Assembly: GCA_964058805.1 (NCBI GenBank)
Contig: CAXKVV010000152.1
Location: forward strand, 1 to 64,000
Reading direction: 5' to 3'
DNA length: 64,000 bases
Origin: Schoenoplectus triqueter
Lineage: Eukaryota; Streptophyta; Magnoliopsida; Poales; Cyperaceae
Positions 4,049-56,806 of the stretch are shown here, piece by piece. A program made the translations under genes and the position numbers. The notes under the pieces are model-generated. The model saw nothing but the letters and a program-made list of their open reading frames with translations, was not told where the DNA came from and did no database searches. Each line of letters begins with the position of its first letter. Position 1 is the stretch's first letter.

Positions 4049-7000
4049 CTATGGGCCCAAAAAGCGGGACTCCAACTCTAATAGCACGGTGCTGATGGTC
4101 TCCAAATGAGTATGGAGAGAGTGCCTATCCTCCTCCGAAGCTGCCTCGAAGTCCAAGAACTGAGTGAAGGCACTATCCCGAGCACTCGCGTGAATCTGCA
4201 GCTCTGGGAGACGTCCCGCTAGATGTCGGGAGAAGCCCTCCACCGATAATCTGTGGTCCTCTAGCTCCTGCACGAGCAGTCGAGCGGGCCCACCACTAAC
4301 TCCCATGGAGCGGAGAGTGGCACAAGAAGAGAGCCGCTGAAGATAGCGGAGTCGAGCGGCCTCCAAATGTCTGCGCAGCTCATGAATCTCCAACTCGCGC
4401 TGATATACGAGAGAGCTCGCATCCTGGTAAGCCCTAAGTAGCTCCTCACACCTCCTGGAAATGAAAGTGCTCTCGAGACGAGGTGCAATGAGTAGAGCTG
4501 GCGCGATAGTATCCCGCATCAGCCTATACCAATCGAAGGAGAAGCCGCCGGGCAGAGAACCCAGAATCTCAAAATCTAGCGGGTAGCCTCCGAAGAAGGT
4601 GTCTCGGAGTGCATCCCCTAGCGCGGCCAAGGCAAGCTGCACATCCCTAGATGAAACATCTGCAAGTAAAATAAATGGTTTAGACAAATTGTTATAACCT
4701 AAGAAGAAATAGAAGGAAGGGAAGATCTAACCTATTGTCTCGTCGCCCGAGACCGGCGGGACTGAATCGGGAATAGGGATGTCGGTCGCCTCAGGAGGAC
4801 CTGCAGGTGCACTAGACCCGGCTGCAAAAATAAAATGGAAGGCATAAGTACATGAAAAGTAAAATACGGGCAAATGATAAAAGAAATATAAAGTACCGGA
4901 GGAAGCATGAGGCTCAGCGAGACCCTCGCCAGCCGGAATCTCCATCTCTGGGCTGTGGAATAGCTGCTCCACCAGCTAACCCTCCTCCAACTCCGAGTCA
5001 TAATCGACTGCAACCCGCTCAGTCGAGGCTCTGCCATCTGTGGCCATGAGAGGCTGCACGTCGGGAGATGAAGAAGTATGAGATGGCCCTCCCTCGATCA
5101 GTAATGGCTCGTCGCCTGCGGGCTCGACAGCCAATGGACTCCCCTGCTCTAAAAAAGCCTCCTCTGGTAGTGCAAGAGTGAGCACTGGCCCCAGAATCAC
5201 ATCAAATGAGTCACCATCTCCAGTGGGTACCAGCAAAATCGACGGTGAAGCAGGACCGTCATGGAAGAAAGGCTCCGAGCGGTGAGGAGACGCCATGTCA
5301 TCGGCCTCAGGGTCTGTAAAATATACATGTAAGAATGAAAATACTAGTGCATGCTGGCAACTAGGAATTAAATGAAGCACACGAACCTGCGACGACAAGG
5401 TCGGTGCAAAACCCTGGAATAGCAGTGCTCGCAGGCACCGATAGATCTGCTATGATGTCGTCTCGGGCCGCTTCTACAGGAGACGTCCCATGAGCTGAAA
5501 AACAAACCCTAATCAGAGATGTAAATGAAGTGCGCCCGAATAAGGATAGGCGAGTCAATAAAGAAAATCACCCGGAGTGGGAGAAGGAAAAGAAGATGGA
5601 GAAGACGGCTGAGAGGCGCCGTCTCGATCCCTCCCCATAGCAGCTGGAGCCGGTGGCTCGACATGTGGCTGAGAATGAACGCCAACTACTCGTGGACGAG
5701 AGACCGAGAACCCGGGCTCCGCGTGATCATACTCATAAGCCAGCTCTGAATCAAAAGAGAATTGGTCGAAATGAGATGAAGCTTATCGAAAAGAAATAAC
5801 CTAAAGGGTGATGAAGCATACCTGTGAGAATGGTCCTAACGGGAGCATGAGAAAACCGGCTGTCTAAACCTTGAAAGTCGACAGGCTCTGCAGCAATGGC
5901 CGGGAAAGGGCTGCGATCACGCGAAACGGTGCCATCTAATAGAGGCTGGCCATCTCGTGGACATGTACTCCGGACGACCACCGGAGGGGTATATGACTGA
6001 TAAGAGCGAATGGTCTCATAATACCACTGCTGATAACGCCTCGTGAAGGTGGAAGTCCTAGAGGTGGATACCATCTGATAGCGAGTGCCCGTGCCTAATC
6101 GGAAGAGGTGAGTGTAGCACCATCCGATACCCTCCAAATCGGCCGCCAGTGATATAGAGCGGAGAAGAGGCGCTGGAATATCCTGATCCAAGCCGAACTG
6201 ATGTGCACATCTATGTGGCGAATAGGGCTCGATGAACATATAATCGCCCAATCTGAGAGGAAGAAAGCCCTGACGAATACTGATCAGGTGCTCCAAGTCA
6301 ATAGGCCTGGCTCGAATGCTAGAAGAGTCAGAAGAGGGAACTCTGCTGTCAATCACCATCCTGTCAGCAACCCTAGATGTCCCACGGGCCACTGATCTGT
6401 CTCGGGAGAAGCGTAGATGGTCTCGACTCCTGAAGAATCTATACCGGGCAGCCTCCGGAGTCAATGAAGCTGGCTGCACCCCAGCTAAGTCACTCAATAA
6501 GGGTAGACGATCTCGTAGCGTGACCGCCATGCCGGGATCATATGAGCCAGACCAATGTAAATGGAGCCATCCGCTAATCAAATGCCACGGGATCAGCTCC
6601 TGGCACTGTGAAGGACTACGAGATGAAGTCAGACCGCGGAGGCACCTATAAATGTTGGCCAGTACAGGCACGGCCAAAGAAATCCTGTCGCCACGCGCGA
6701 TCAGGCTCGCCATAATGAACACCGAAGGCCGAATGGTGTATGCGGGGGAGCTAGGTAATAAGAAATAGCAAATCCACCAAGAGATGAAGGCGGTCAGATA
6801 AGTCTCCCGATCCACGTCATGTGAACACAGGGTATCCTGAGATGGGATAGGGCCGTCATGATGAATCTCGAGCCGACCTGTACCAAATGGATCTCTGGTG
6901 GAAGCCAGACCCGTAGGGCGAGTGTGGACCCGATCGGTGAAATAGGCGATCCAATGTCTGAACGGAACTCCGGGATGCCCCCTCCGTAAATGATGGTAAA

Positions 7001-7700
7001 TCTCATAAATCCTATGCAAAGAAGGCGGGAATCGAGTGAAGTCCCCCGAGTCAGCGGGCGAGACCATGAACTCGTCATAGAAATGACCGAAGATCGGCAG
7101 CCCGGTCAACTGCTGTATCTCTAGGAGGGTCGGAGTCAGCTCCCGATCGTCAATGAATAGAGTGTTGGTGGAATAGTTCCACCTCTCACAAAAAGCCCGT
7201 AGCCAGGGTGTGTCGATATGATAATGAAACATCGACAAGAAAACCGAGTCATATATCCCGGCTCGCCTGAGCAGAGTCCCCTCCCGCATGAGCACATACC
7301 GGGTCCACTCTAGCTGATATCCATGGCACTCTAAGGGAGTGATGAAGGGAGCAGTAGTCCACCTGTGAGCCTCCCCGTCGATAATCTCCTTGCCCAGGAG
7401 ATGTGTCAAAGGAGCTATGGAAGCAACGCCTAAGGGCTGAAGGGGCATGATGTCATGAGGCTGATCATCCCTGAAAAATAAACCGCCGCCTCGCGGGTAG
7501 ACAGGAGTCGCTCGGATGGCTGAGACGAGAGGAGTCCAATCGCTGGGATCCTCGTAAAAAGAATGATAATGACTCAAGGGGCGACGCGGAATGGCGTCAT
7601 GAGATAAAACTACAATACCCGAAGAAGAGAAGACGTCATGAGAAATGAAATGATGAATAGTAAGGAATAATGCACCAAGACAAGCCTTTCGAGCGTTCAA
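4049..7700 (-). CDS. Six-exon antisense gene with a plant mobile domain (PMD)
   Basis: Antisense to pol, between integrase and the 3' LTR. Exon 1 (7700-5822) encodes a PMD-type domain: residues about 100-220 carry WTRYVLMREG, LRAFCERW, TFH-like TLFIDDRELTPTLLEIQQLTGLP and later HWIAYF. Five further exons can be joined with GT-AG borders: 5745-5572, 5494-5387, 5313-4897, 4821-4732 and 4659-4049. The introns are 76, 77, 73, 75 and 72 bp and all are phase 1. The middle exons are Pro/Ser/acid-rich; the last encodes about 200 residues with helix-prone Leu/Arg/Glu text. Joined length is about 1090 codons. One in-frame TAG lies in exon 4 (4978-4976); reading continues in frame past it, so it is a nonsense mutation or the protein ends there. 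No ATG precedes the PMD in exon 1, so the start is unclear. PMD genes in gypsy elements are known; the function is not. Transcription would have to come from the LTR's minus strand. Confidence 0.75.
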
Positions 7701-7708
7701 GACTCGTC

Positions 7709-7724
7709 TTGGTGGGTGGCTCTT
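7709..7724 (+). other. Possible polypurine tract before the 3' LTR
   Basis: A G-rich run, TTGGTGGGTGGC, sits just upstream of the LTR start TG at 7725. Plus-strand priming of Ty3/gypsy elements uses a purine tract in this position. It is interrupted by pyrimidines, so the call rests mainly on location. Confidence 0.45.
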
Positions 7725-7912
7725 TGTTTACCATTGAAAAATTTCAAGGATGAGTAGATGAATAAATGAAATAAATTGATGATAAATCATAAGAAAAGGG
7801 GGAGAAGAAAGAGAGCAGTGGAAAGGTGGCCCACTGATCAGGAAAAGTCGCTGCATAACCCCGGAACAAATCCATTAGTCCCACAATGGAATGCTGAGCG
7901 CAAAGTGAAGAG

Positions 7913-36759: not shown

Positions 36760-38099
36760 ATGGAAATTTTGAACGAGATACGTGAGGAACAGAGGTCTCA
36801 AGGAACAGCGACAGTGCTCGCAATTGGCTCGGCGACTCCCTCTAATTTCATATACCAATCCCAATATGCCGATTATTTCTTTCGTGTTACGAAGAGCGAG
36901 CACCTTAAAGAACTCAAGCAGGAGTTTCAAAAAATATGTAAGCTAGAAATCCAACAAATTAACACACACATTCATAATAGAATTTTTACATCACGTACAT
37001 GCATACATTAACACATTCACACATGCACATAACTAACATTAATTCATCATCCCAATTTATAGGTGATGACACAAAAATCAACAAACGTCACTTTCACCTC
37101 ACGGAGGAAATGCTCAAAAAGCATCCAAAAATAACTTCAAATAAGGATCAAGAATCACTTGATGCTCGACAAGGCATAGTATTAGGTGCGGTGCCTAGGC
37201 TCGGCCTCATGGCGGCAGAGAAGGCTATTAAAGAGTGGGGCCAGCCAAAGTCGAAGATAACCCACCTACTTTTTCACACCACAACAGGTAGTATTGACAT
37301 GCCTGGTGCTGATCGTCAAATGGTAAGGCTCCTTGGTCTCTCTCCCTCTACCAAGAGATCAATGATGTACCACCAGGGCTGCTCGGGCGGTGGCACGGTG
37401 CTCCGTCTTGCCAAGGATATAGCCGAGAATACTCGATGCACTCGTGTCCTTGTTATCTGCTCAGAGATTTCTCTGACAACCTTTCGTGGGCCATCTGAGG
37501 CGAACAAAGATACTCTCCTACCTCAAGCAATTTTCGGAGATGGGGCGTCTGCTGTGATTGTGGGAGCCCAGCCGGACCTATCAGTTGAGCGTCCTATTTT
37601 TGAAATCATTTCAGCATGTCAAACCATCCTTCCTGGCACAGAGGATGCAATGGTGGGACACATCAGACAAGACGGTCTCACATTACACATGTCACCTCCT
37701 ATGCAAAAACATATCTCAAATAATATCATCAGTATTCTTTCAGAGATCATCGAACCACTCGGGATTATTAATGACTGGAATTCAGCCTTTTGGGCCATGA
37801 ACCCAGGGTGGCCCACTATCCTAGAACAATTGCAGTCAGATTTGGTACTTGACGAGGAAAAGCTTAAGGTGACGAGGCATGTGCTTGCCAATTATGGCAA
37901 CATGATGAGTGCAACCATATTTTTCATGCTTGATGAAATGAGGAAGCAGTCGGCCGAAGAGGGAAAGGCATATGATGGACAATACGGTGTCCTTTTAGGA
38001 TTTGGTGCAGGAATCACCATGGAGACTACCATCTTGCGCGCCAATAAGTACAATGCGCGCAATTTCACTGAATCAGAGGATGACGTATGGACAATTTAA
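36760..38099 (+). CDS. Type III polyketide synthase 1 (chalcone synthase family, His-to-Asn variant)
   Basis: Two coding exons, 36760-36937 and 37063-38099, joined across a 125-bp GT-AG intron that splits the codon of Cys60, the intron place conserved in the chalcone synthase family. Product 404 residues (family usually 390-400). Seen: TATVLAIGSATP near the N-terminus, DARQGI, GQPKSKITHL, DMPGAD, nucleophile Cys166 in YHQGCSGGG, gatekeeper-type Phe217 in FGDG, catalytic Asn339 in YGNMMSA, and GFGAG at 372-376. Odd: Asn306 (MNPGWP) replaces the catalytic His of HPGGP; the CHS Ser338 site is Met341; GFGPG has become GFGAG; one residue is inserted at 136-137 beside the cavity (TTTGSIDMPG). The family condenses malonyl-CoA onto a starter CoA in the cytosol, so substrate and even activity are open here. 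The frame is intact and has a close paralogue at 51294-52632. Confidence 0.9.
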
Positions 38100-43383: not shown

Positions 43384-46300
43384 GGGGTGGGTAGGCCTGT
43401 CAACGAGACCCGTTTACCCGTTATTCCGTTCCGTTTCGTGGACACGGAACGGTAAACGGAATGAAATTTTGCTTCGTTTGCGAAACGAAATGGCAGACGC
43501 AAATGGTATTGGTTTCGTCTGCGAAACGGAACGATTAATGCAAATTGATTCTGTCGTTTCGTTAATTTTTGTTTGCGTTTAGAATTCAACGGAGCTGCAA
43601 TTCTAGCGATTGCAGGGTTAATATCAGCGGAGAAATAGATAGGTAAAAAAACCCTAGGTTGGTGGATCCGCCGCTCATTCCCGTCTCTCTCTCTCTCTCG
43701 GGAGAGAAATCTTTGTCTGTCGTCGCCGTCGACCCTTGAGTGATCTGTCGGCTTGGCCGATCTGTTCGACTGTTCCCCCTCCTTGCCATCTCATCATTTC
43801 TTCGTTGTTTGTTTCCCCTCCTAGCTCGCGAAATGAGGCTGTCGGTTCCTTATTTCGATGACAGATCTGACCAGAAAATCTGACCAGAAAATCGTCACCT
43901 CCGGTTGTGTTAAGGAAAAGGGAAACCATGGAGAACCCTTACTTATATATGGCTTGGAGGGAGAAAAAAGGAAGAACCGAAAGAAAGAAAAAAAAAAGAG
44001 AGAGGCCGGAGAGAAAGTAAGAAAGAAGGAAAGGAAAAGAGAGAAAGGAAGTCAAGGTCAGTGAGCAAATCTTTAACAGAAGGTATTTTTCTTCTAATTT
44101 CTATTTCTTTTCTTCGATTTTTTTGTTTTTTTGTTATTTTTCTTTTGCTTTTACAAGTCGCATGTCACTGATTTTTTTTTTCTTTTTGTTCTTGCTACTG
44201 TCTATGCAGGTTTGCTTTTTTGCTATCAGTTTATTTCACTCTAACTATTGATCTTTGACTTGGCTAGCTAAGGATGAGTGATGAAGACAGACAATTAGGG
44301 TCAGGGACTGTCAGTGAGCCTGATATCTCATCTAATGAGTATGAACTTGAACTCCTTTTTCTTTACTTGACTAGCTTGTTTGAGTTGCTTTTTGAGAACT
44401 ATAAATGTTTGAAAGATGCTCACTGGCAGAACTTGCTTGTTTAGAAATTACTTGTTTGAGAAATTGCTTGCTTATAAATTGCTTGTTAGAAATTGCTTGC
44501 TAGAAATTACTTGTTAGAAATTAGACTTATTTAGAAATTGCTTGCTTAGAAATTACTTGTGTACTTGCTGGTTTAAGCAAGTATGTGCTTGATCTGAAAT
44601 TGAAATTGATACTATGCTTAATCTGAATGAATTGCTTGTTTAGAAATTGCTTGTATCGTGTCCTCATTTTCTTGGCTTGGCTTTCTATGACTTAGCATGG
44701 GCATGGGGCTAAATCAAGAGACCCAAGAGGAAATACAAAGGATACAAACTGATGCAAACAATGACCCTACAGATGGTGTTAATGCACCAGAATCAGAAAG
44801 ACCCTAAAAAAAGAGGAAAACTAGGACAACACTAACCTCTGATGTATGGAAACATTTCAAAAAGGGGCATGATCAGGAAGATGGCAGCTATGATGCTATA
44901 TGCAACTATTGTGGGCAAGTCTTTAAGATAGGTTGTTAAAGGAGCACCAGCTCCTTGAGGCACCACATAACTAAAAGTTGCAAGAAAATTCCTCACAACA
45001 TCAGGCACAAACCTGATGCCATGCAAAAATGGTTGCAGGCTAGCAATACAACAACAGGTACAAACCTAATTCTAAACAGGTACCAACTATATTTCTTAGT
45101 TGCATGTTCTAACTTAAATTATTTCATGTTAGGAGGGCAATCTCCTACTAATTGGGTGTTTAATCAAATGAGGTGTAGAAAAGGCCTTGCAAGAATGGTG
45201 ATTGCACACGAATACCCATTCTTAAGTGATTTACAACACTTTTTTAAAATGCCCTCAAGAAATACTATTAGAGCTGATTGCATTGGTATTTATGAAGAGG
45301 AAAAAGATCTTTTGTATAAGTTGTTTAGCAAGTTAGAATGTAAATTCAGTTTTACTAGTGACTTGTGGACAAGTAAGGGCAAAGATAGGGGTTTCATGAC
45401 CCTTACAGTTCATTACATAGATGACGATTGGCATTTAAGAAAGAGAACAATCACATTTGCCCCATTGCCCAGTCCCCACACTGGTAAGCAAATAGCTGAT
45501 GCTATTATGGAAAAACTGGTACTATGGAACATGGACCAAAAAGCTTTCTGTCTTGTCCTTGACAATTCCAGTGCAAATGATGCTTGCATTAACAAAATCC
45601 TCAATGAAACATCTATTAAAAATACACTTCCAGTTAAAGGGGTAGTTTTTCATCAAAGATGTGGTTGTCACATCTTGAACTTGATTGTTCAAGATGGATT
45701 GGCTGTGCTGGATGGTGAGATAAGTTTGATTCGGATGCGATGAAGTATATTCGTCATTCGCAATCCAGGATGGAAAAATTCAAGTTGGCAGTAGCTCAGG
45801 TATATCTTTAAAAGTTATCTTTCTAACATTGTGTACTTATCTTTGGATGTTATTTTTCTAACATTATATGATTATGATGCATTGTAGGTTAATGCTCCAG
45901 ATAAAAAGCCTGCCTGGGATGTCCAAACAAGGTGGAACTCCACATATTTGATGTTGGAGTTAGCCTTGGAGCTAAGGGAGGCCATTAGTAGATATGCTGC
46001 CCTTGATAGAAGGTTTATTCTAAACTCATCTGAAGTTGATTGGGACAAAATGAAAGCTCTAATGGAGTGCTTGAAAATATTTTATGATGCCACACTAAAG
46101 TTGAGTGGCACCAAGTATCCAACACTTAACTTATTTTTTCCTGAGTTTTGTGAGATATATCTTAAAATAAAAAAATGGAGAGTAGTCCACATTCATTCAT
46201 AGTTCAGATGAGTTTAGAAATATTTGCAAAATAGAATAAGTATTGGGCCAATGGGAATATGTTGTTAGCAATTGCTTGTGTGCTTGATCCTAGATATAAA

Positions 46301-47944
46301 CTGGCTGTTGTTGAGTATTATTTTGAGCAGATGTACCCTGATGACTCTGCCAACTTCATTGCCAACTTGAGAAGTTGCATGGATGCATTGTTCAAAGAAT
46401 ATGTGGAATCACATTCAAGGTTGCACAACCAAGCTGGCAGATCAATACAACAAATGAGGTATTGATCTTACACTTGGATTCTTTATTGTTTAGTTGAAAT
46501 TAAAATTGATACTATGCTTGATCTGTACTATGCTTGATCTAAATGAATTGAGTATTGTTAATAGGCAAACTACTAGCCCAACACCTAGGGTTAGTGATAC
46601 AAGGGCTGGGTTGAAGGATCACTTGAGGGGTAAAAAGACCTCTGAACCAATAAAGTCAGAACTTGAGGATTATTTGACTGATGGACTTGATGAAGCCAAT
46701 CTAGATGATGAATTCGACATCTTGACATGGTGGAAACTAAAGGCTCCTAAGTACCCGGTACTTTCTCGGTTAACCCGGGACATACTTGTTGTCCCAATCT
46801 CCACAGTTGCTTCTGAATCTACCTTCAGTACTAGTGGTAGAACTTTGAACCCAGTAAGAAACTCTTTGAATGATGAAAGTATTGAAGCACTTATATGTGC
46901 TCAGGATTGGTTGAGAGCTTCAATTATCGGTACACTAACTTGATAGAACTTATTTCTATATCATTCTGAATCTATTATATGCATACTTACATTCATTGTT
47001 GTTCAACCATGTTTCAGAAAATAGAGGGTACTTTGATGATGTCCTATGTCTCACTGATGAAGAGGCACTCGGTGATCGTGTCTGTGTCAGTGAAGCCTAA
47101 GAATCTGTCAGACCTTTCTATCTCTCAGTAGTCCTATTTTGTTCCCTTTTGGTTGCCTTGATGGCTAGGTAGTTCTGGTAGTTGCTTGATGACTTAGTAT
47201 AGTTGCCTTGTTACTTGTTGTGTTGTTGCTCGTAAGCATGACTTGCTATATGACTTGCTTAAATTTGATATATGACTTGCTCGTAAGCATGACTTGCTAC
47301 TTGATGAATTCTTTATGTAGTTTGATATATGACTTGCTTAAATTTGTATGAATTTGATGCATGACTTGCTTAAATTTTTCTACATTTTTGTCCAATTTAT
47401 GTTGTATTTGATGTATGCTTGAATTCATGCTTGAATATATGCTTGAATTCATGTTTGAATATATGCTTGAATTCATGCTTGAATATATGCTTGTCAAATT
47501 TATGTTGTATTTGTATGAGTTTGATATATGCTTGAATTCATGTGTTATGTTAGAAATTGCTGATTTGTATTTGAATTCATGTATTTATTTGTATTTGATG
47601 TATTTATTTGAATTTATTTGTATTTGTGTTATGTTGTATTTGAATTCATGTGTATTTATTTGATGAATTCATGTGTTATTAGAAATTCATGTGTATGTAT
47701 TTATGTTATGTTGTATTTGACTGGCGTATTTAGAAATTGCTGAATAAAACGATCACATATCTTAACCGTTCAAACTGTTTAAATCGTTTAAGAAAACGAA
47801 ACGGTTAACAGAAGAAAATTTGGTTGCATTTGCTTACCGCAACGAATAACGAAAAAAAATAATTAATCGTGCAGTTAACGCAACGATTAACGCAAGAGGT
47901 CACTTTCGTGACTGTTTCCAACGTTTGACAGGCCTAGGGGTGGG
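43384..47944 (+). mobile_element. hAT (Ac-like) transposon, 4545 bp, with 8-bp target duplication
   Basis: 43392-47936. It begins TAGGCCTGTCAACG and ends CGTTTGACAGGCCTA, terminal inverted repeats. GGGGTGGG precedes it (43384-43391) and follows it (47937-47944), a perfect 8-bp duplication. Subterminal GAAACGG/ CGTTTC-rich text lies at both ends. Tandem TTAGAAATTGCTTG repeats at 44440-44660 and ATGCTTGAATTC-type repeats at 47405-47480 flank the transposase gene. Inserted into the RNase H part of the LINE. Confidence 0.93.
44273..47100 (+). pseudogene. hAT transposase (BED finger, RNase H-like core, dimerisation domain), broken
   Basis: A possible first exon at 44273 reads MSDEDRQLGSGTVSEPDISS. 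From 44697 a BED zinc finger is readable (SDVWKHFKKG, CNYCGQVF, LRHHITKSC) but has in-frame TAA codons at about 44805 and 44937. The following open frame to 45743 holds FSFTSDLWTSKGKDRGFMTL and HQRCGCHILNLIVQDGL, conserved in Ac-like and RICESLEEPER-type transposases. Further pieces follow (NAPDKKPAWDVQTRWNSTYLM at about 45892; ACVLDPRYKL at 46280), and the C-terminal hAT dimerisation domain at 46690-46940 (LSRLTRDILVVPISTVASES). A last exon near 47018 ends with FDDVLCLTDEEAL. The nonsense codons show it is no longer functional. Confidence 0.85.
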
Positions 47945-51293: not shown

Positions 51294-52632
51294 TTAAATT
51301 GTCCAGACATCATCCTCTGATTCAGTGAAATTGTGCGCATTATATTTATTGGCACGTAAGATGGTAGTCTCCATGGTGATTCCAGCTCCAAATCCTAAAA
51401 TGACACCATACTCTTCATCCAATGCATTTCCTTCTCCAGCCAACTGCTTCCTCATTTCATCAAGCATGAAAAATATGGTTGCACTCATCATGTTGCCATA
51501 ATCGGCAAGCACATGCCTCGTCACCTTCAGCTTTTCCTCATCAAGTGCCAGATCTGACCGCACTTGTTCGAGGATAGTGGGCCACCCTGGGTTCACGACC
51601 CAAAAGGCTGAATTCCAGTCAGTAATAATCTTGAGTGGTTCGACAATCTCTGAAAGAGTACTAATGATGTTATTCGAGATATGTTTTGGTGCAGGAGGTG
51701 ACATGTGCAATGTGAGACCGTCTTGTCTGATATGTCCCACCATTGCATCGTCTGTGCCAGGAAGGATGGTTTGATATGCTGAAATGATTTCAAAAATAGG
51801 ACGCTCAACTGACAAGTCCGGCTGGGCTCCCACAATCACAGCAGCCGCCCCATCTCCGAAAATTGCTTGAGGTAGGAGAGTATCTTTATTCGCCTCAGAT
51901 GGCCCACGGAAGGTTGTCAGAGAAATCTCTGAGCATATTACAAGGACACGAGTACCTTGAGTATTCTCAGCTATATCCTTGGCAAGACGCAGCACCATGC
52001 CACCACCCGAGCAACCCTGGTGGTACATCATTGACCTTTTGGTAGAGGGAGAGAGACCAAGGAGCCTCACCATCTGACGATCCGCGCCAGGCATGTCAAT
52101 ACTACCTGTTGTGGTGTGAAAAAGTAGGTGGGTGATCTTCGACTTTGGCTGGCCCCATTCTTTAATGGCCTTCTCTGCTGCCATGAGGCCGAGTCTCGGC
52201 ACTGCACCTAACACTATGTCTTGTCGAGCATCAAGTGATTCTTGATTTTTATTTGAAGTTATTTTTGGGTGTTTTTTGAGCATTTCCTCTGTGAGGTGAA
52301 AATGACGTTTGTGGATTTTTGTGTCATCACCTACAAATAAGGATGAAGAATTAATGTTACTTATGTGCATGTGCGAATGTGTGAATGTGTGATGTACGTG
52401 ATGTAAGAAATCTACTGTGAATGTGTCTGTTAATTTGTTGGACTTCTGGCTTACAGATTTTCTGAAACTCCTGCTTGAGTTCTTTAAGGTGCTCATTCTT
52501 CGTAACACGAAAGAAGTAATCGGCATATTGGGATTGGTATATGAAATTAGAGGGAGTAGCCGAGCCGATTGCGAGCACTGTCGCCGTTCCTTGAGACCTC
52601 TGTGCCTCACGTATCTCATTCAAAATTTCCAT
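51294..52632 (-). CDS. Type III polyketide synthase 2 (paralogue of PKS1, same His-to-Asn change)
   Basis: Exons 52632-52455 and 52330-51294 with a 124-bp intron splitting Cys60; the product is 404 residues, aligned to PKS1 without gaps, about 30 differences. The nucleophile Cys166 (YHQGCSGGG), Asn339 and GFGAG are kept, and Asn306 (VNPGWP) again takes the place of the catalytic His. Differences cluster at 273-321 and 356-370; residue 97 is Asp (DARQDI), the usual family residue, where PKS1 has Gly, so PKS2 looks closer to the ancestor there. Near the cavity, 171 is Met instead of Thr and 304-305 are VV instead of AM. Convergent with PKS1, with 13.2 kb between the stop codons. Its promoter and leader are also conserved. 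Expected to be cytosolic; substrate unknown. Confidence 0.9.
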
Positions 52633-56239: not shown

Positions 56240-56806
56240 TCAAAGGACACAACATTCTTCTCGCCCTATACGTCGACTCGGGTAACTCATTTTTTTCTGA
56301 GAGCATTTCTCATAAAAGATCGAGCAAGGAGTCAAAACTCTTGTCACTTCATCCATTTTTTTCTTCAAATTATACAATTTAAAAGTAGCAGGCATTTTTG
56401 AAAATTTTATACAACCGGGAAATAAGGGTATGTTTTTTTCCATAATCAAAGTTCCAAACAATCCAGGAGTATCAGCAAAATTAGGCTCAACATGATCAGT
56501 CATCATTTCATCTAGTTTATCATTAATACACTGATCATCAAAATTTTGTACATTAATTTCAGCATTTTCAACCACTTCTTCCCGCACATCAGAACTTGAA
56601 TCTACATCTACTGCATTATCATCACTATTAGTGTTTGGTACTGTCCTGATAGGCCATACAATATTGCACGTGTCTTCCTTGGACTCTCCGTGCTTCACCC
56701 ATTGAGTGTAACCCAACACAAACCCACGAGCAATCAAGTGACCTAAGAATATTCTGGCAATCAATGCAAGGGCACAGGATAGAACGAGCAGCATGATAAG
56801 CCTCAT
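56240..56806 (-). pseudogene. TNP2-type CACTA transposase, N-terminal fragment
   Basis: The 188-residue frame holds HLIARGFVLGYTQWVKHGES, the end of a transposase-associated domain, then an acidic linker and PLFPGCIKFSKMPATFKLYNLK, which matches the PLYPGCTKFSKL-type motif after that domain in TNP2-like transposases. The catalytic core that should follow is absent. The first Met lies in a hydrophobic stretch and is probably not the original start. Confidence 0.65.

Follow-up and report, generated by a model that had tools for sequence, protein, structure and literature searches.

Chalcone synthase-like proteins with asparagine in place of the catalytic histidine in Schoenoplectus triqueter: a clade of possible non-condensing cysteine enzymes

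Type III polyketide synthases with and without the catalytic histidine

According to a kingdom-wide analysis of plants, a Cys-His-Asn catalytic triad is conserved in all type III polyketide synthases (PKSs) (PMC8133574); the main text of that paper mentions neither Cyperaceae nor Carex. This article concerns two type III PKS-like genes, here called A and B, in the first 64 kb of a contig (C149) of Schoenoplectus triqueter, a stretch of 64,000 nucleotides referred to below as the window. Judged from its residues, the clade to which they belong has the type III PKS fold and fails one defining feature, the catalytic histidine (His303 in chalcone synthase (CHS) numbering), which is replaced by asparagine. 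The clade has one origin and a very long stem, after which it has been under strong purifying selection as His-less proteins. The reading favoured here, held tentatively at a probability of about 0.42, is that these former CHSs, likely from the sedges, are non-condensing cysteine enzymes that would not decarboxylate malonyl-coenzyme A (malonyl-CoA).

One described counterpart is laboratory-made. In alfalfa CHS, the H303A, H303D, H303N and H303T mutations are reported to abolish malonyl-CoA decarboxylation, H303Q being the exception, and the dissociation constants (Kd) for CoA or acetyl-CoA are reported as little changed in Cys164, Phe215 and His303 mutants (PMC6274091). A crystal structure of the H303Q mutant is available (1d6i in the PDB). 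H303N is the same residue change as that seen here, but the alfalfa mutants differ from an intact CHS at one residue only, whereas many pocket residues have also changed in the clade, which thus looks like a natural H303N enzyme with the rest of the pocket adapted. A literature search for H303N together with chalcone returned only the review just cited.

A natural lack of the histidine is reported for a cluster of fungal type III PKSs (H303D, N336S), which, unlike the clade, has Asp at 303 and loses Asn336 (PMC12559476). Among plants, the rice CHS-family genes OsCHS19, 26, 27 and 31 are described as being without triad residues, but their reading frames are short and the authors considered them non-functional (PMC7312121), whereas the clade proteins are full-length and under purifying selection. 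In the KS0 domains of trans-acyltransferase (trans-AT) modular PKSs, such as Art14KS4, the cysteine is kept, Asn takes the place of the first histidine, and transthiolation has been proposed in place of condensation, an activity that they are predicted to lack (PMC8302727). These domains are parts of modular bacterial PKSs, where they shuttle chains between carrier proteins, whereas the clade consists of free-standing plant proteins. Both belong to the same superfamily, and by analogy the clade likely corresponds, among type III enzymes, to the KS0 domains. No NPGWP family or full-length plant His-less clade was found in the literature searched, of which subscription papers mostly formed no part. 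A full-length, tandemly multiplied and constrained His-less clade would show that the fold has other uses.

Genes A and B

The two genes face each other, and each has a single GT-AG intron in the Cys60 codon and encodes 404 amino acids plus a stop. The coordinates given by the sequence-only reading that preceded this analysis, 37063..38099, cover the second exon of gene A and leave out the first (36760-36937). That reading's description of both genes as open over 404 codons with about 30 differences holds, since A and B differ at 31 of 404 residues (95 of 1212 bases). The divergence between them is 0.121 in the intron and 0.27-0.36 in the flanking sequence. The features are as follows.

36760..36937, + strand: gene A exon 1, with codons 1-59 plus base 1 of codon 60, in an open spliced frame with a GT-AG junction
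36922..36924, + strand: gene A Glu55 codon, at CHS Lys55 (CoA clamp)
36938..37062, + strand: gene A intron of 125 bases, GT-AG, interrupting the Cys60 codon
37063..38099, + strand: gene A exon 2 with the stop, holding all catalytic positions, with PF00195 and PF02797 above their cut-offs
37275..37277, + strand: gene A His131 codon, at CHS Cys130, a new histidine present in 13/13 clade rows
37371..37373, + strand: gene A His163 codon, at CHS Gln161, a new histidine present in 13/13 clade rows
37380..37382, + strand: gene A Cys166 codon, at CHS Cys164, the nucleophile position, retained
37800..37802, + strand: gene A Asn306 codon (AAC), at CHS His303
37899..37901, + strand: gene A Asn339 codon, at CHS Asn336, retained
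38043..38096, + strand: gene A C-terminal tail, ending in EDDVWTI, with a similar acidic-Trp end in aligned relatives
51294..52330, - strand: gene B exon 2 with the stop
51591..51593, - strand: gene B Asn306 codon (AAC)
52011..52013, - strand: gene B Cys166 codon (TGC)
52331..52454, - strand: gene B intron of 124 bases
52455..52632, - strand: gene B exon 1

In fold, domains (PF00195 and PF02797), length and the position of the intron, the clade is like plant CHS and other type III PKSs. The N- and C-terminal Chal_sti_synt domains score 237 and 154.7 bits in gene A exon 2 (cut-off 27). A structure predicted from that exon alone has a middling predicted local distance difference test (pLDDT) score of 69.3, and the full-length relative P0004 reaches 82.1. 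The C-terminal tail, which is not found in CHS, has a conserved acidic-Trp ending (EDDVW or DDAW) and low model confidence.

Both genes keep Cys166 and Asn339 and read NPGWP, as the sequence-only reading had stated and as a position check in gene A and alignment confirm. Gene A Asn306 aligns on CHS His303, with NPGWP opposite the HPGGP or HPGGK of the genome's own CHS, rice CHS and a Cannabis enzyme. Misalignment or a hidden histidine was considered and rejected, because HPGGP and NPGWP align without gaps. The aligned site is thus Asn, yet two new histidines have become fixed elsewhere in the fold, at CHS positions 130 and 161. Positions below are in CHS numbering unless a gene is named.

Relatives and copies

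Two database searches, with 120 proteins listed in each, gave 153 different proteins. The search for Asn at the His303 site proposed with the sequence-only reading found it in five of them, P0001 (97% identity), P0002 (78%), P0003 from Rhynchospora pubera (77%), P0004 (76%) and P0005 (78%). Since the Asn is common to relatives of only 76-78% identity, including that of Rhynchospora pubera, it is older than the local duplication, as had been claimed. The contigs that encode P0002 and P0004 (1412 and 1600 bases) cross the exon junction without an intron, which suggests that both come from RNA. P0001, P0003 and P0005 are annotated plainly as “chalcone synthase”, which could mislead predictions of sedge pathways. 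One contig scan for bacterial relatives gave 37 pattern matches with no relative among them. In three further entries, the long, multi-copy models P0123, P0124 and P0125 of type III PKSs from Musa troglodytarum, HPGNW replaces HPGGP.

In an alignment of 153 rows, Asn303 is found in all 13 clade rows (8 from this genome and 5 from the database) and His in all 140 others. Nine listed proteins, all with His motifs, fell outside the alignment for length. The His-bearing rows are close relatives, mostly named CHS, and Rhynchospora, Carex and Juncus are represented among them by CHSs of the His type; the count therefore does not extend to type III PKSs as a whole.

The copy search covered 82 Mb of the assembly in 2086 contigs. 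The sequence-only reading had spoken of two intact paralogues, which is right for A and B but understates the family: nine copies read NPGWP, of which eight are intact at 404 residues. Six of the nine are on C149 (A1-A3 and B1-B3), one is on C199 and two are on C271. One of the latter, C271b, is broken, with the frame of exon 1 lost and a stop in exon 2, and stands outside the alignment and the conservation test. Short partial matches on C614, C1593 and C1950 (near 21.9 kb) lie outside the count. On C149 the A(+)/B(-) pair occurs three times, about 44-52 kb apart, with A at 36996, 88668 and 133174 and B at 51819, 102562 and 151454. Among the A copies, A2 and A3 have almost the same sequence and A1 is older (dS 0.05); the three B copies, B1-B3, also differ very little. 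Copy A3 (L034:453-1781) has a 117-base intron without an in-frame stop, and an unspliced message would encode 443 amino acids.

HPGGP is intact in three other genes of this genome: a pair of ordinary CHS genes, both on C1201, and a paralogue on C1950 that has diverged. Both C1201 genes (L032, C1201:1000-9000) have a second intron directly 5' of ISDWNS, where the His-less clade has no intron and one extra residue. A second-exon intron is called unusual in the title of a paper on Alpinia (PMC3036070).

Origin and selection

A careful tree, built from 37 rows, unites the Asn rows in a single group with 100/100 support. A quick tree of 46 rows gave the same group a Shimodaira-Hasegawa-like approximate likelihood ratio test (SH-aLRT) value of 100, on a stem 1.03 changes per site long, compared with a median end branch of 0.073. 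The quick tree joined long branches; the careful tree, made without C1950 and the Cannabis enzyme, retained the clade. The genome's own CHS groups with sedge and rush CHSs in the trees, and a union of the clade with the sedge and rush CHSs was not rejected by the approximately unbiased test (p-AU 0.187). The clade is likely of the sedge group.

Ratios of nonsynonymous to synonymous change (dN/dS, by the NG86 method) among the A, B/C271a and C199 lineages are 0.11-0.17 (dS 0.23-0.28), and that of B with C271a is 0.17-0.18; all of these cover lineages after the loss of the histidine. For A and B the ratio is 0.140 (bootstrap 95% 0.083-0.218), far from the value near 1 that would have told against the sequence-only reading. 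Bootstrap 95% intervals are 0.082-0.204 for A-C199, 0.068-0.189 for B-C199, 0.093-0.340 for B-C271a and 0.085-0.516 for A1-A2. Neither relaxed selection nor a broken frame was found in the eight intact copies. The proposal of a changed function rather than fresh decay is thus supported.

Changes around the active site

Like CHS, the clade keeps Met137 together with Cys164, Glu192, Gly256 and Asn336, the last four in 13/13 rows, and Phe215 in 12/13. Fixed in all 13 rows are His130, Thr133, His161, Ser165, Gly166, Ser194, Pro211, Asn303, Met338 and Ala375. Unlike CHS, the clade thus has Asn303, Ser338 changed to Met and Pro375 of the GFGPG loop changed to Ala (C271b reads GFGTG), as well as Trp, Phe or Met for Gly306, unconserved CoA contacts, small indels and the new tail. 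Position 130 is Cys in 139/140 of the His-type rows and His in none, and position 161 is Gln in 136/140 and His in 4/140. In the P0004 prediction, the two positions lie at or beside the ends of strands 127-132 and 157-162, with position 161 just before the Cys. The M59I and F165S changes of the clade match changes in the Arabidopsis CHS mutant 6dxe (M64I, F170S and others), on a numbering offset that we take to apply; the 6dxe mutation set presumably concerns cysteine reactivity.

The basic residues of the CoA tunnel, Lys55, Arg58 and Lys62, are not retained across the clade, which has Glu (10 rows), Asn (1) or a gap (2) at position 55, Lys (8) and others at 58, and Asp (10), Glu (1), Lys (1) or a gap (1) at 62. 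Positions 55, 58, 62, 269 and 308 are described in PMC11093982 as lining the CoA tunnel or touching the substrate; the K268 of that paper is equated here with CHS Lys269. Within the clade none of these five is invariant, whereas 229 of the 363 background columns are (Fisher p = 0.007); in 139 His-bearing rows, all five have a 96-100% majority. The intron-derived N-terminal residues of P0001 were masked in this test only, and its unmasked values at 55 and 58 are meaningless.

Possible functions

The clade proteins are predicted to be unable to build polyketides. Because Cys164 and Asn336 are retained and fixed, a non-condensing cysteine enzyme with an acyl-transfer or hydrolase role is the single best reading. 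Of the examples suggested by the sequence-only reading, condensation without the histidine is argued against, by analogy, by the reported H303N mutant, and the loss of the CoA contacts would argue against ordinary CoA loading. With those contacts lost, a CoA ester bound in the standard manner is an improbable donor. What we infer of the chemistry, the substrate and the role of the new histidines is as follows. Cys164, tuned by its altered surroundings and possibly by His130 or His161, would attack a small acyl or phenolic substrate; the acyl or phenolic group would then be handed to water or another acceptor, and no carbon-carbon bond would be made. A more specific version, in which Cys164 and the new His130 and His161 form a rebuilt Cys-His-His site that moves or cleaves the acyl group of a non-CoA substrate, is doubtful. 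If true, this would be the first plant family of the type III PKS fold working without the catalytic histidine and without CoA.

Several observations weigh against the non-condensing reading. Eleven of 15 cavity positions are invariant, which is not above the background of 229/363 (p = 0.59), so that constraint on the catalytic pocket is unproven. Compared with the genome's own CHS, 8/20 functional positions are unchanged in the clade, against about 58% of the remaining positions (p 0.10-0.16). The His-bearing C1950 itself keeps only 10/20, and change in the pocket alone is therefore not diagnostic; C1950 also has Asn62 and Pro269. P0002 still has Lys62 and P0003 still has Arg58. Asn or Ser takes the place of Gly163, beside the nucleophile, in P0002, P0003, P0004 and P0005 (4/13 rows); the window genes keep Gly. 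At the level of sequence, the loss of CoA contacts is informative, and the cavity figures by themselves are not.

A regulatory pseudoenzyme is nearly as likely as the non-condensing cysteine enzyme. In that case the CHS fold would survive for binding or regulation, for example by pairing with a true CHS or by holding a ligand such as a flavonoid, and Cys166 would not be catalytic. The invariance of Cys164 and Asn336 in 13/13 rows speaks against this, though they could have been retained by chance. The model for such a role, CHIL, is described as a regulatory auxiliary of CHS (PMC6629762), but it has another fold, while that of the clade is CHS and not CHI.

Unlikely, but with some residues in its favour, is a type III PKS that still condenses, with His130 or His161, together with water and Asn306, replacing His303, or with substrates that need no malonyl decarboxylation. 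The fixation of both histidines, their places at or near strand ends and the position of the second just before the Cys would fit such a replacement, and H303Q CHS is reported to have some decarboxylation left (PMC6274091). H303N is reported in the same review to abolish it, the CoA contacts are not conserved, and His161 alone is found in ordinary CHS rows. Functionless, decaying duplicates are highly improbable, since the broken C271 copy and the recent array copies, which may be under little scrutiny, stand against eight frames open over 404 codons, the low dN/dS between lineages and relatives at 76-78% identity with the same residues, and fresh decay of the eight intact copies is rejected.

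Neighbourhood

Eight open reading frames (ORFs) of the window besides genes A and B were checked against Pfam. A gene cluster with tailoring enzymes was considered and rejected, since none of the matches listed for methyltransferase PF00891 (at least 25) or acyltransferase PF02458 (at least 23) lies on C149. Around genes A and B are a hAT dimerisation region (44940-46943), an ORF with a plant mobile domain (5751-7727) and a weak, sub-cut-off transposase-associated match (56240-56806).
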